Shown here piece by piece: positions 8,539-42,381 of a stretch of 64,000 nucleotides of DNA. The stretch comes from Polyangium fumosum. GTDB lineage: Bacteria > Myxococcota_A > Polyangia > Polyangiales > Polyangiaceae. A model generated the notes under the pieces. The model was not told the origin of the DNA, ran no database searches, and saw only the letters and a program-made list of their open reading frames with translations. The position numbers and the translations under genes are program-made. The stretch is taken from NCBI RefSeq assembly GCF_005144585.1, contig NZ_SSMQ01000074.1, positions 1 to 64,000 on the forward strand. The letters run 5' to 3'. Position 1 is the stretch's first letter; each line of letters opens with the position of its first letter.

Positions 8539-14973
<6,435 letters not shown>

Positions 14974-38300: not shown

Positions 38301-40355
38301 ATGAGAACATCGAGGATCGGGGCCGCGTGGGCGCTCGGGCTCATCACCACGTCGTTCGTCACGGGCTCGGCGTCGGCCGAGGAGCTCGCGCTGAGGCGCG
38401 TGATGCTCTCGACGGGCGGCGTCGGGTACTTCGAGCACGAGGCGCAGGTGTCGGGGGACGCCGAGCTCACGTTCGACGTGCGGCTCGATCAGGTGAGCGA
38501 CGTGCTGAAGAGCCTGCTCGCGATGGATCCCCAAGGTCGGCTCGGACAAGCGAGCCTGCCGGGGCGCGCGCCGCTCTCCGAGATCTTCCGGGATCTGCCG
38601 TTCTCCCAGGAGGACCTGTCCTCCACGGCGTCGCTGCTCCGCGCGCTGCGCGGTCAGATGCTGCGCGTGTCGGCGCACGCCACGACGATGGAGGGGCGGC
38701 TCGTCGCCGTGACGGAGGAGAAGGTCTCGCTCGGCGAGGGGCAAGGCACCATCGTGCGCAACAGGCTGTCGCTGCTGACGCCGACGGGCATGCGGCAGGT
38801 CGTGCTCGAAGAGGCGGACGCGATCGAGATCGTGGACACGCGGCTGCGCGCCCAGGTGGAGCAGGCGCTGGCCGCGATCGCGGCCTACGCCGCGGCAGAT
38901 CAGCGCACGATCACGATCGACGTGCACGGGCAGGGCGAGCGGACGGTGCGCGTGGGCTACGTGGTCGCAGCGCCGCTGTGGAAGGCGACGTATCGGCTCG
39001 TGGTGCCCAAGACCTCGGGCGAGGCGAAGCTCGAAGGGTGGGCCCTGCTGGAGAACATGAGCGGGCAAGATTGGAAGCGCGTGGAGCTGTCGGTGGCGTC
39101 GGGCAACCCCGTGACGTTGCGGCAAGCGGTCTACGACTCGTATTTCGTGAATCGACCGGAGGTGCCGGTGGAGGTGCTCGGGCGCAGGCTGCCGCCGGTC
39201 GACGTAGGGGCCGTGCCAGAGGCCGAGGTCGCCGAGGAAGCCGACGGCGCAGGGGGCGGGCGCGTCATGATGCGTCGTGGCTTCATGGCCGTGCCATCCG
39301 CCGCGGACGCCTTGATGTTCAACGCGCAGCCGGCCGGAGAGGCGCCCATGCCGGAGCCGTCGCCAATCGCCGAGCCCTCGGAAGGCGCAACGCAGGTGGT
39401 CTTCCACTTCCCGGATCCCGTGGACCTGCCGCGCGGCCAATCGCTGCTCGTGCCGATCGTGAGCGAGTCGCTCCCCGTCGAGCGGGTGTCCTGGTATCGC
39501 TACGACGTCGACGCACGGAACCCGCTCGCGTCGGTGCGACTCACGAACGACACCGAGACAGGCCTGCCGCCCGGAATCCTGTCGATCTACGAGAACACAC
39601 AGGCAAACGAGCCGCCGTCGTTTGTCGGCGACGCGCGGCTCGGCGCGCTCCCCGCCGGGGAAGATCGGCTCGTGAGCTACGCCGTCGATCTCGACGTGCG
39701 CGTGAACCGCGAGGAGAAGTTCGCGCAAGTCGTGACAGGCGCGAAGATCGCGCGGGGCGTGCTGGAGGTGTATCGCGCAGAGCGGCGGACGACGACGTAC
39801 AAGATCAAGGGCGCAGCCGACGAGGCGCGTGTCCTCGTCGTGGAGCACCCGCGCATCCAGGGTTTCACCCTGAAAGCGCCGACGGAAGGCGTGATCGGGA
39901 CGACGGACACGCACGTGCGGATCCGGCGGGAGGTTCCCGCAGGACAAACGGTGGACCTGGAGGTGGTGCTGGAGCGGCCGATCGAGCAGAGCATCGTGAT
40001 CGGATCGATCACGGCGCAAGAGCTCGGCGTGTTGCTCGCGTCGACGGAGATATCTGCCGAGGTGCGGGCCGCCCTCGAGCACGTGGCCGCGCTCCAGCAG
40101 ACGCTCGCGTCGCGGGAGCAAGCGCTCGCGCTCCTGCGGACCGAGCGGCAGGCGCTGGTGTCGGATCAGGATCGGCTGCGGCGAAACCTCGCGTCGTCAC
40201 CCCAAGGCAGCGATCTACACACGCGGTACCTGGCAGCACTCGCATCCACCGAGGATCGGATCGGCGAGCTCGATCGGGCCATCGAGACAGCCGACGCCGC
40301 CGTGCGGGTCGCACGGGAAGAACTCGCGGACTACATCGCGAACCTGTCGATCTGA
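38301..40355 (+). CDS. exported DUF4139 (MuiA-like) protein
   Basis: The protein is 684 residues with a signal peptide (ALGLITTSFVTGSASA before EEL). The N-terminal beta domain has the 'GGVGYFEHEAQV' start typical of these proteins. The DUF4139 region (about 200-560) has VRVGYVVAAPLWKATYRL, WALLENMSGQDWKRVELSVASG and SVRLTNDTETGLPPG. A Gly/Met patch (GGGRVMMRRGF) lies near 315. A coiled coil (about 575-680) closes the protein. It acts outside the cytoplasm; function is unknown. Confidence 0.85.
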   Translation: MRTSRIGAAWALGLITTSFVTGSASAEELALRRVMLSTGGVGYFEHEAQVSGDAELTFDVRLDQVSDVLKSLLAMDPQGRLGQASLPGRAPLSEIFRDLPFSQEDLSSTASLLRALRGQMLRVSAHATTMEGRLVAVTEEKVSLGEGQGTIVRNRLSLLTPTGMRQVVLEEADAIEIVDTRLRAQVEQALAAIAAYAAADQRTITIDVHGQGERTVRVGYVVAAPLWKATYRLVVPKTSGEAKLEGWALLENMSGQDWKRVELSVASGNPVTLRQAVYDSYFVNRPEVPVEVLGRRLPPVDVGAVPEAEVAEEADGAGGGRVMMRRGFMAVPSAADALMFNAQPAGEAPMPEPSPIAEPSEGATQVVFHFPDPVDLPRGQSLLVPIVSESLPVERVSWYRYDVDARNPLASVRLTNDTETGLPPGILSIYENTQANEPPSFVGDARLGALPAGEDRLVSYAVDLDVRVNREEKFAQVVTGAKIARGVLEVYRAERRTTTYKIKGAADEARVLVVEHPRIQGFTLKAPTEGVIGTTDTHVRIRREVPAGQTVDLEVVLERPIEQSIVIGSITAQELGVLLASTEISAEVRAALEHVAALQQTLASREQALALLRTERQALVSDQDRLRRNLASSPQGSDLHTRYLAALASTEDRIGELDRAIETADAAVRVAREELADYIANLSI

Positions 40356-40365
40356 GGGAGATGTC

Positions 40366-40406
40366 GGGGCCTGGGGGCGCCTCGCTGGGGCGTCGCCCCA
40401 GGCCCC
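40366..40406 (+). terminator. strong stem-loop after the DUF4139 gene
   Basis: GGGGCCTGGGG (40366-40376) pairs perfectly with CCCCAGGCCCC (40396-40406), 10 bases after the stop. An alternative inner hairpin (CTGGGGCG…CGCCCCAG) shares the loop. It is part of repeat copy B. It has no T-run, as is common in GC-rich genomes. Confidence 0.55.
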
Positions 40407-40492
40407 AGGAGGGGGCTGTCCGCCCCCTCCACCCCGGACCAGCGAGGCGCTGGACCCAGGGTTGAAAACCTGCGCGGTACGCAGGTTTTCAA
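40366..40492 (-). repeat. dispersed intergenic repeat, copy B (inverted relative to copy A)
   Basis: Read on the minus strand: a 13-base hairpin (arms 40462-40474 and 40480-40492), the 22-base core (40436-40457) identical to 330-351, GGGGGCGGACAGCCCCC, then the GGGGCCTGGGG hairpin. The end hairpin differs in sequence from copy A's but is equally self-complementary. It sits just after a gene end, as copy A does. Confidence 0.75.
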
Positions 40493-40589
40493 ACAGGTCG
40501 ATGAAGGAGCCGGGGGGGCGCCCGGTCCGTGCAACGGGGGCGCGGGACGTGGGGACGCGCTTGGCGGGAGGGACAATGCACGCGACAAC

Positions 40590-40910
40590 GGCGAAACGCT
40601 CGTTCCGCTTCGTCGGAACGAGCCCCACCCCGCGGCGGGACGTGTTCCCGGAATCGGGAACGTCCCCGGAAGCGAATCCCAGCGCGTTGCACGATGTGGG
40701 AAGGACCTCGGGGCACCGTCGCGCGGCGCTCCGAAAAAGGGGAAGGGTCCCGGAAACGAGGCGGAGGGCGTTCCGACAAAGGGGAACGATCTGGGAGACG
40801 GCTCCGCGCGTGGTCCAGGAGCGCGGAATCGAGCTCGGCGCAGAGGCGAGGGGCGTTCCGGCAAAGGGGAATCGGTCGGGCCGCGGATCCGGGCGCATTG
40901 CGAGGAGGTG
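40590..40910 (+). repeat. tandem array of imperfect 42-bp units with GTTCC…GGAAC inverted repeats
   Basis: Variants of GTTCC open each unit at 40602, 40644, 40686, 40728, 40770, 40812 and 40855 (spacing 42,42,42,42,42,43), with a weaker eighth near 40897. In most units GTTCCG is followed after 5-8 bases by GGGGAAC or CGGAAC, so each can form a small hairpin. On the plus strand, in the frame that runs into the gene at 41080, the array reads as 14-residue repeats of type R-x-F-x-x-x-G-T-x-x-E, but codon choice there (GGA, AGG) is unlike neighbouring genes. The array is unique in this window. Confidence 0.7.
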
Positions 40911-41079
40911 GAGGCGGGTTGAAGCCCGCCCCGAGGGCAGTCGATGGAGCGGCTCCTGTCAAGGCTTTGCGCTCCGGGGTCGTTGGCCCTTCGGGCCGGA
41001 TGTACGACGCCGCGCATGGATTGCGACCTCGGGGTGGGGAGGCCTGCCGGTCTTGAAAGCGGGGCGCCTTCTGGCGAAC

Positions 41080-42381
41080 ATGCGGTCCATGTTTGATGCG
41101 CAGAGGATCCTGGGCGCGCTGGTCTCGGATGGAGTCGAAGGCGGGAGCTTCCGCGATTCCAGCCGTCGTCGGCGTTACCGCGACGAGGAGTACGAGCGTC
41201 GCGACGACGAGAGCGGTATCGGCGCGGGGACGCTGCTCGCAGGCGCCGCGGGGGTCGCGGCGGCGGGCGGGCTCGCCTACATGGCGTATCAGCACTTCAA
41301 GCAGCCGGCGGCGCCGGGAATGCCGGGGGCGCCGGGGATGCACGGGATGCCGGGGGCGCCGGGGATGCACGGGATGCCGGGGGCGCCGGGGATGCACGGG
41401 ATGCCGGGGGCGCCGGGGATGATGCCGGGGGCGCCTGCGCAGCAGCAGCAGGGGTTTTTGGGGCAATTGATGGGGTCTTCGTCCGGGCCGATTCCGCCGG
41501 GTGCGCCGCAGGGGGGCGGCGCGACGAATTTCGGGGTGCCGGTTTATCACAAGGATCCGTCGACGTGGGGGACGAGCGCGCCTGCGGCGCCTGCGCAGGG
41601 ACACGCGCCCTGGGGGGGCCCGCAGGGCGGCCCGCCGCAGCCGGCGCAGCCGTGGGGAGCGCCGCCGAACCCGGGGCCGCAAGCGGGCTGGGGCGGGCCT
41701 CCGCCGCCGGCGCAAGCGGCGCAGCCGCCCGCGCAATGGAACGCGCAGCCGAACACGACGCCGACGGCGCAATGGGGGGCGCCGCCCCACGCGGCGCCGC
41801 CTGCGCCGCCTGCACCTTCGCAATGGAACGCGCAGCCGAGCACGACGCCGACGGCGCAATGGGGCGCTCCGCCGAACATAGCGCCGCCGGCTCCGGCCGC
41901 GCCGCCTGCGCAATGGGGAGCTCCGCCAAACCCGGTCGCCGCTCCCGCGCCCGCAGCCGCTCCCGCTCCCGCTCCCGCTCCCGCAGCCGCTCCCGCTCCC
42001 GCTCCCGCTCCCGCAGCCGACGCCCAGGCCGACGCCTTGCTCCTCGTGCGCGCCATGATCACCGCCGCCTTCATCGACGGCCAGATCGATCCCGAGGAGC
42101 GCGCGCGTATCCTCGACCGCCTCGCGCGTGCCGGCCTCGGGCCCGAGGATCGCGACGCGCTCAACCGCGAGCTCGAAGCCCCGCAGCCACCCTTTGCGCT
42201 CATCGGGCAGATCCGATCACCCCAGATGGCCGAGCAGTTTTACGTGGTCTCGCTCCTCTCCGCGGGCACCGAATCCGAGGCCGAGCGCGCCTACCTCAAA
42301 GGCCTGCCCTCCATGCTCGGCCTGCGCCCCGAGGACGTCGCCCGCTTGCATGCGGGCCTCGGCCTTCCGCCCCTCCCGTGA
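41080..42381 (+). CDS. DUF533/TerB-domain protein with collagen-like and Pro/Ala/Gln-rich linker
   Basis: ATG 41080 (or ATG 41089, which gives the neat start MFDAQRILGAL) yields about 433 residues. The start shows the DUF533 'FDAxxxLxxLV' helix, a charged Arg/Glu/Asp patch, a membrane-like segment (GTLLAGAAGVAAAGGLAYMAYQ, about 48-70), then a collagen-like PGAPGMHGM stretch and a long Pro/Ala/Gln/Trp linker (to about 320). TerB-like helices close the protein (ALLLVRAMITAAFIDGQIDPEERARI … YLKGLPSMLGL). The 42-bp array lies directly upstream. Function is unknown. Confidence 0.8.
   Translation: MRSMFDAQRILGALVSDGVEGGSFRDSSRRRRYRDEEYERRDDESGIGAGTLLAGAAGVAAAGGLAYMAYQHFKQPAAPGMPGAPGMHGMPGAPGMHGMPGAPGMHGMPGAPGMMPGAPAQQQQGFLGQLMGSSSGPIPPGAPQGGGATNFGVPVYHKDPSTWGTSAPAAPAQGHAPWGGPQGGPPQPAQPWGAPPNPGPQAGWGGPPPPAQAAQPPAQWNAQPNTTPTAQWGAPPHAAPPAPPAPSQWNAQPSTTPTAQWGAPPNIAPPAPAAPPAQWGAPPNPVAAPAPAAAPAPAPAPAAAPAPAPAPAADAQADALLLVRAMITAAFIDGQIDPEERARILDRLARAGLGPEDRDALNRELEAPQPPFALIGQIRSPQMAEQFYVVSLLSAGTESEAERAYLKGLPSMLGLRPEDVARLHAGLGLPPLP
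41320..41421 (+). repeat. 27-bp tandem repeats coding PGAPGMHGM
   Basis: Exact 27-base units start at 41320, 41347 and 41374, with a partial fourth at 41401. They encode the collagen-like nonapeptide repeat of the DUF533 protein. A second low-complexity stretch of GCTCCC triplets runs at about 41940-42022 (Ala-Pro linker). Confidence 0.9.

Follow-up and report, generated by a model that had tools for sequence, protein, structure and literature searches.

Modules that pair a gene for a mainly helical, uncharacterised protein of about 230 amino acids with an adjoining tandem array of short repeats were found to recur across the phylum of Polyangium fumosum, each module with its own unit sequence, nearly all with a period of 41-44 bp, and usually with a palindrome in the unit. 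The stretch of 64,000 nucleotides of P. fumosum DNA analysed here (the window) holds an array that was shown to be an orphan, MITE-linked paralogue of these arrays, one home locus of which lies beside the gene for the ~230-residue protein; it is considered an orphan because no member of the protein family is encoded in the window. An unexplained repeat, which would otherwise be filed as genus-specific junk on sequence similarity alone, is thereby explained and becomes one half of a system. The pairing of genes with arrays that each have their own palindrome and a near-constant spacing of 41-43 bases, seen in relatives of this bacterium and, beside a different protein, in Bacteroidota, suggests that such protein-array pairs form a class of bacterial systems not described before. 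The statement of the first-pass annotation that no described element fits the array holds for the libraries searched (Rfam, Pfam, NCBIfam, PHROG and PADLOC), and a gene and array module of this sort was not named in those parts of the open-access PMC literature that the search covered.

The window array and its copies

The array occupies positions 40602 to 40923 of the forward strand and consists of eight units of 42 or 43 bp with the core TTSC-N8-GRAA. Perfect dyads are carried by units 1 (40602 to 40643; GTTCC-N8-GGAAC), 2 (40644 to 40685) and 5 (40770 to 40811), so the GTTCC...GGAAC inverted repeats earlier ascribed to every unit hold in full for these units and with imperfect arms for the others, as in units 3 (40686 to 40727; GTTGC...GGAAG) and 4 (40728 to 40769; GCTCC...GGAAG). 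Unit 6 (40812 to 40854) is 43 bp long, and unit 7 (40855 to 40896) is followed by a degenerate unit 8 (40897 to 40923), at about which homology with the sister copies stops. The earlier count of seven units spaced by 42, 42, 42, 42, 42 and 43 bp was thus correct in its spacing and is extended by the degenerate unit at 40897, which adds a final step of 42. That the 42-bp array is real was confirmed by its lag-42 self-identity, which was 0.479 over positions 40576 to 40930 and was reached by none of 2000 shuffles (maximum 0.380). The pattern GTTCC-N{5,10}-GGAAC occurs three times in the 64 kb against an expectation of 0.42, and all three occurrences fall inside the array.

Neither neighbouring gene is part of the array. 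Upstream is an ordinary neighbour encoding a DUF4139 protein (38301 to 40355, forward strand), and downstream is a gene encoding a DUF533 protein (41080 to 42381, forward strand), the start of which is conserved in congeneric genomes. An open frame had been described as running through the array into the latter gene; it appears to be incidental, with sister copies differing by 1-nt indels and with the start region kept in five congeneric genomes corresponding to ATG 41080/41089, downstream of the array. A decaying peptide repeat, one of the options offered earlier, is contradicted by the same indels and by related arrays with 43-bp units, and a coding repeat was rejected since no frame is kept among the copies. 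Two further repeats were observed in the window, viz., a large, probably coding tandem repeat of 276 bp (9133 to 12101; 10.8 copies, 88% matches) and a collagen-like repeat of 27-bp units inside the DUF533 gene (41304 to 41421).

By BLAST, six full-length copies with 72-100% identity were identified in the genome of the window (G000; 13 Mb in 201 contigs), and 12 copies in three of 59 related genomes (its own counted), all in a single genus. Weaker matches in the same genome (L008-L030), considered as further arrays, almost all looked like chance by eye, and no plasmid match for the array was found that would indicate a plasmid origin. The start and end of the array are largely common to the copies, which differ by 1-nt indels. 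Whole arrays are taken to have been copied after their units arose, because the window array shares 71-90% identity with the other copies, whereas its neighbouring units are only ~48% identical to one another. Over 12 copies, the dyad arms were conserved at 0.890 compared to 0.743 for loops and 0.774 for the remainder, the value for the arms being the best of 42 phase shifts, with shifts of one or two bases close to it. In three copies (L046 (C119), L050 and L051), the stretch of the unit-1 dyad agrees with a later unit at 20-21 of 24 positions when that unit is reverse-complemented and at 11-12 when it is read directly, an inversion that looks as it would after template switching between inverted repeats.

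At the window site itself, the array is absent from all five congeneric genomes compared. The segment 40359 to 41042 (684 bp) has no counterpart in G001, G003 and G005, where only 41-55 bp are present, and in G002 and G004 the site holds MITE-like sequence without an array. In the window, half of this fold-back, MITE-like dispersed repeat lies at 40387 to 40516; whole, it measures ~300 bp, with a minimum free energy of -217 kcal/mol for the example in L049, and dozens of copies are present in G000 and G004. It is followed by a leader (40517 to 40600, forward strand) that includes a doubtful unit at 40560, is common to the MITE-linked sister copies and is absent from copies of the C11/C47 type. 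MITE sequence stands on both sides of the array, inverted, in five copies (L044, L046, L049, L050 and L051); the window copy has its half on one side only. Array and MITE are found together at C114 in G000 where four genomes keep a gene of ~550 codons (L088, 91-1809), a 49-bp piece of which remains in G000 (L045, 9801-9849), and at 3.86 Mb in G004, a site at which a gene of ~515 codons is retained by three other genomes and similar DNA is present in G000. The C11 and C47 copies adjoin no MITE, and their sites are common with G004 and, for C47, also with G005. Array edges coincide with breakpoints at both C11 and C47.

Gene and array modules across the phylum

Use of the dyad pattern genome-wide recovered arrays that had been missed by BLAST, and a three-unit profile (R1) located arrays in all six genomes of the genus. 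The restriction to one genus suggested by BLAST (three of 59 genomes) was overturned by the profile search, and the arrays are likewise not confined to this strain, as the first-pass annotation had allowed they might be, given both the copies and the diverged arrays in other genomes. R1 had been built from a MAFFT alignment slipped by whole units, and an in-phase alignment with a second model (R2) was used for the taxonomic family. Of 79 genomes of that family searched with R2, a broader profile, four being from the genus, 19 were matched at E≤0.01; outside the genus only G036, of a second genus, was strong (best E 1.7e-11, all others above 1e-4). Six loci of G036 have 42-bp repeats with self-identities of 0.62-0.90 and different dyads, and one has a 43-bp repeat. 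Terminal inverted repeats on the G036 arrays were considered and found to be weak, the inverted similarity of the array ends being equalled by two of 1000 shuffles. In three of the six cases (L250-L255), GCG and a run of five or six T come directly after the array.

Among 27 arrays that were segmented, 23 had eight or nine units, with end units often degenerate and steps mostly of 42 or 43 bp. Two loci recognized by their flanks, X and Y, are occupied in all six genus genomes; the sequences of the units have undergone turnover and, here and there, homogenisation. Orthologous arrays were conserved no better than the alignable DNA that neighbours them, although at two of three loci one flank was replaced while the array stayed. 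In G001, an insertion of ~3.9 kb adjoins the array of locus X at its edge (L205, 1900-5808).

At locus Y, the array lies upstream of a gene encoding a 232-amino acid protein in each of the six genus genomes, and in G036 an array lies upstream of a homologue of this gene. A search with the protein gave matches in 10 of 97 related genomes, including all six of the genus, G036, and G065; in the last, a weak array match (E 0.0035) was located ~270 bp from the family gene and scored 45.6 in a matrix scan compared to at most 12.0 in shuffles. With a profile of 18 homologues (A6), the protein family was found in 35 of the 377 genomes searched from the phylum; several of the 35, the window's own included, have at least seven matches.

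Tandem periodicity was assessed at 66 loci of the protein family, 45 from the A6 search (L287-L331) and 21 from the search with the 232-residue protein (L282-L286 were excluded as repeats), by scoring lags of 30-60 bp at distances of up to 900 bp from the gene. The best lag was 41-44 bp at 58 loci, with the array upstream of the gene at 40 and downstream at 18, and 43 of the 58 had self-identities of at least 0.5. Control segments, drawn from some but not all of the genomes tested, had a best lag of 41-44 bp in 12 of 63 cases and a self-identity of at least 0.5 in one. These controls comprised 38 segments from the genus (five at lag 41-44) and 25 from nine loci found by DNA pattern (seven at that lag), and their rate is raised because the nine loci had been picked by a pattern of that period. 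The single control at or above 0.5 (L011, ~1500-1700) bears a real 43-bp array of unrelated sequence with no partner gene in the 3-kb stretch examined. Between modules, the unit sequence differs and the period hardly does: it was 41 bp at one of the 58 loci, 42 bp at 30, 43 bp at 24 and 44 bp at three. Eight loci lacked a best lag in this range (L272, L290, L296, L298, L299, L317, L321 and L324). Matrix scanning found an array at L272 (70.3 compared to a shuffle maximum of 10.7), the repeats at L324 measure 48 bp (0.97) and 43 bp (0.84), L321 has a 42-bp repeat 1.7 kb away, and at L290 a contig end cuts the sequence just upstream.

The association was also met from the opposite direction. L128, from Deltaproteobacteria bacterium STA_58, was found by DNA pattern, without protein information, and encodes a family protein (E 1e-11) ~0.2 kb from its 43-bp array; it was the only one of 71 such loci, most of the others being from Bacteroidota, with a significant family match. 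An AlphaFold2 model of the L128 protein from its single sequence (pLDDT 75, pTM 0.58) has two long helices (residues 32-88 and 141-207) separated by a conserved FPxG region modeled with low confidence, and the protein is thus predicted to form a long helical hairpin. Searches of PDB and viral folds with this model gave nothing at E 0.001 or below, and nothing useful emerged among solved structures and folds. In four family members, no Pfam or NCBIfam match exceeded its cut-off (two NCBIfam matches at E 5e-4 and 7e-4 had 19 bits against cut-offs of 350 and 436), no PHROG match was convincing, and no DNA-binding domain was recognizable. No relatives of one family protein were found in viral contigs or phages.

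DUF6261 arrays and the palindromic units

A sub-threshold match of one family homologue to Pfam DUF6261 (PF19775; 16.2 bits, cut-off 27), together with DNA-pattern matches in Bacteroidales, led to examination of DUF6261 proteins. These were found in three of 14 genomes, two of Prevotella and one of Parabacteroides, with 19, 23 and 15 copies, and the DNA-pattern loci of these genomes have local 41/42-bp periodicity. Among the 30 of 57 matches at which adjoining DNA was scored, 28 had a palindromic array of 41/42 bp, in all cases upstream of the domain; the test had no matched control set, and its strength lies in the height of the self-identities, which ranged from 0.47 to 0.97 and in many arrays were at least 0.9, with whole units near-identical. 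At the two loci without an array (L338 and L355), only 230 and 189 bp separate the start from the end of the stretch, which cuts the upstream DNA. The one DUF6261 match in a plasmid collection was to a 568-kb replicon of Prevotella nigrescens. A 41-bp array also adjoins the 5' end of a DUF6261 gene annotated on a replicon of this species; no relatives of one DUF6261 protein were detected in viral contigs.

Homology between DUF6261 and the 232-residue family was not supported (hhalign probability 0.3%, in addition to the Pfam score above). The two resemble each other as small proteins associated with palindromic arrays, and, as they are not detectably homologous, the parallel may be one of convergence or of remote descent. 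Local periodicity of 42/43 bp was also observed in genomes of other phyla without DUF6261 (L128, L137, L144 and L158). No family protein is encoded in the sequence adjoining L137, L144 and L158, which come from contigs that are gammaproteobacterial, verrucomicrobial and labelled as Akkermansia, and have 42-bp periodicity around GTTCC-N8-GGAAC pairs.

Consensus units from both phyla contain longer perfect inverted repeats than expected. The length was 6.14 compared to 4.16 in shuffled units for 28 arrays of Bacteroidota and 5.76 compared to 4.54 for 37 arrays from the window's phylum, with none of 200 shuffles as long in either case; the arrays were a chosen set, five of the 37 being G036 orphans, and the shuffles keep base composition only. 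Where arms were of five or more bases, they were more conserved than the rest of the unit in 18 of 23 and 16 of 24 arrays. Within chosen arrays (28 and 29), changes broke the pairing of arms in 177 and 245 cells and compensated it in 12 and 20, respectively. The dyad is therefore kept while its sequence varies between modules, and within a module it is the sequence that is held rather than the pairing.

A candidate role for the arrays and its alternatives

We propose, with moderate confidence, that each array is the cognate binding-site array of the neighbouring protein, the copy in the window being an orphan of such an array. The protein would bind a helically phased array, with about four turns of DNA per unit, each paralogue having its own dyad specificity, and cooperative binding would either regulate the protein's own gene or assemble a nucleoprotein structure; the array in the window, far from the gene, could be a spare target or a decaying relic. 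We infer that the recognition between protein and array is mutual and occurs at the level of DNA. Phased, protein-binding dyads would fit the pattern of change better than RNA hairpins do, because compensating changes within arrays are far rarer than those that disrupt pairing and because the period is near four helical turns. A protein-binding array, one of three options in the first-pass annotation, is accordingly the best supported of them from comparison of sequences, short of proof. Counting against it are the conservation of orthologous arrays, no better than that of neighbouring DNA, the eight loci missed by the lag test, the lack of a binding-domain match in the members scanned, the helical-hairpin model with its uninformative fold matches, the absence of detectable homology with the Bacteroidota protein, and the 18 of 58 arrays that lie downstream of the gene, which is odd for a simple operator. 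Iterons, parS sites and multi-site operators are likewise palindromic sites, phased along the DNA and adjacent to the gene for their binding protein, a role that is putative here. They differ from the present modules in that many paralogous modules occur per genome, each with its own site, and in that no ParB or Rep match was obtained with the family members scanned.

More tentatively, and with somewhat less than an even chance of being correct, the class may extend over two phyla or more, and each of its paralogous helical proteins would recognize a tandem array of palindromes of its own, with near-invariant spacing and variable sequence. If so, it would constitute a natural family of evolving nucleic-acid recognition pairs, with conceivable roles in chromosome organisation, self/non-self marking or RNA-mediated recognition. 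With 15-23 copies of DUF6261 per genome in the three Bacteroidota genomes and at least seven copies of the present family in the window's genome, the many diverged pairs of a single genome would provide a natural set for the evolution of protein-nucleic acid specificity and, perhaps, for new recognition modules. Two protein families of obscure function thus gain a visible DNA array of near-fixed period as a testable partner; no curated family was found for the one described here, and the other is known only as a domain of unknown function, mention of which was traced, in the portion of the open-access PMC literature searched, only to work on Streptococcus oralis.

An unlikely alternative is that the arrays are transcribed into repeat RNAs that are bound or processed by the neighbouring protein, as with stem-loop TIGR-Tas systems or a CRISPR-like guide or decoy. 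In the sections available of the account of TIGR arrays (Faure et al., 2025; PMC12045711), an array up- or downstream of one gene is made of short repeated units, usually 5-15 in number, the repeats are constant within a locus and different between loci, and a stem-loop variant has variable palindromes, traits that are shared by the palindromic arrays beside 58 of 66 family loci and 28 of 30 DUF6261 loci. A regulatory RNA array, as suggested earlier, also finds some favour in the palindromes kept across modules and in the minus strand of the window array, which folds better than all 100 shuffles (z -3.10); for the plus strand, z was -1.69 and five of 100 shuffles were as good. The GCG and T tracts that follow half of the G036 arrays are of the same tendency. 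Covariation of the hairpin arms, by contrast, was not found: RNAalifold detected none over 12 copies of the genus-level family (term +1.01), and arm pairing over 212 units was close to independence, with a slight excess at one pair (0.47 compared to 0.40). Against guide RNAs in particular, the same account of TIGR arrays describes alternating repeats with variable 9-nt spacers and guide RNAs of 36 nt, whereas the period here is 41-43 bp and units are often near-identical without such alternation, so that many arrays hold no variable guides (PMC12045711). Nor was a convincing Nop, Cas or other RNA-guided protein matched. The Nop domain had no Pfam match at E≤1 in four family members, and no Nop fold was named among the best 50 of 600 Foldseek matches to the single-sequence model (pLDDT 75), which a very divergent Nop could escape; in PADLOC, the best match for three family members and one DUF6261 protein, to Cas11e, was not convincing (E 0.014, 14.3 bits). 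The neighbours of the window array, unlike those of a CRISPR-Cas array, are the DUF4139 and DUF533 genes and no Cas. Rfam 15 gave a single match within 38-43 kb of the window, below its cut-off and outside the array, and only an unrelated tRNA-Sec among ten module loci.

That the arrays are passive or selfish minisatellites, hitch-hiking on MITEs without function and linked to the gene by inheritance alone, is considered rather improbable. The independent homogenisation of units in different loci and species, the existence of orphan arrays, the MITE linkage of the window copy, and the absence of extra conservation at orthologous sites are each in keeping with it. A passive repeat should, however, lose its period and its place. 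Here, a period of 41-44 bp persists through turnover of the sequence, the palindromes exceed those of shuffles, and the pairing of gene and array is seen in distantly related taxa and has a counterpart in a second phylum. A likeness to the MITE-linked window copy, which may itself be carried by its MITE, is offered by BrickBuilt, a minisatellite within a MITE in Porphyromonas gingivalis, for which no gene and array module is described in the portion of the report available (PMC4596501).

Binding-site arrays of a neighbouring protein thus remain the preferred reading. RAYT transposases and REP elements offer a further comparison, in which a gene is adjoined by matching palindromes with orphan copies elsewhere, as is the case here, but the palindromes of the present modules stand in tandem arrays of near-fixed period. 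It is very improbable that gene and array are themselves a mobile or domesticated element of this kind, the protein moving or maintaining its arrays: the array family is dispersed, its presence varies between species, and the G036 array ends have their weak inverted similarity, but no transposase or HUH family was matched in the members scanned (for Y1_Tnp, none at E≤1 in Pfam in four of them), the MITE may explain the dispersal of the window copy, and the home loci have stayed in place in six genomes.
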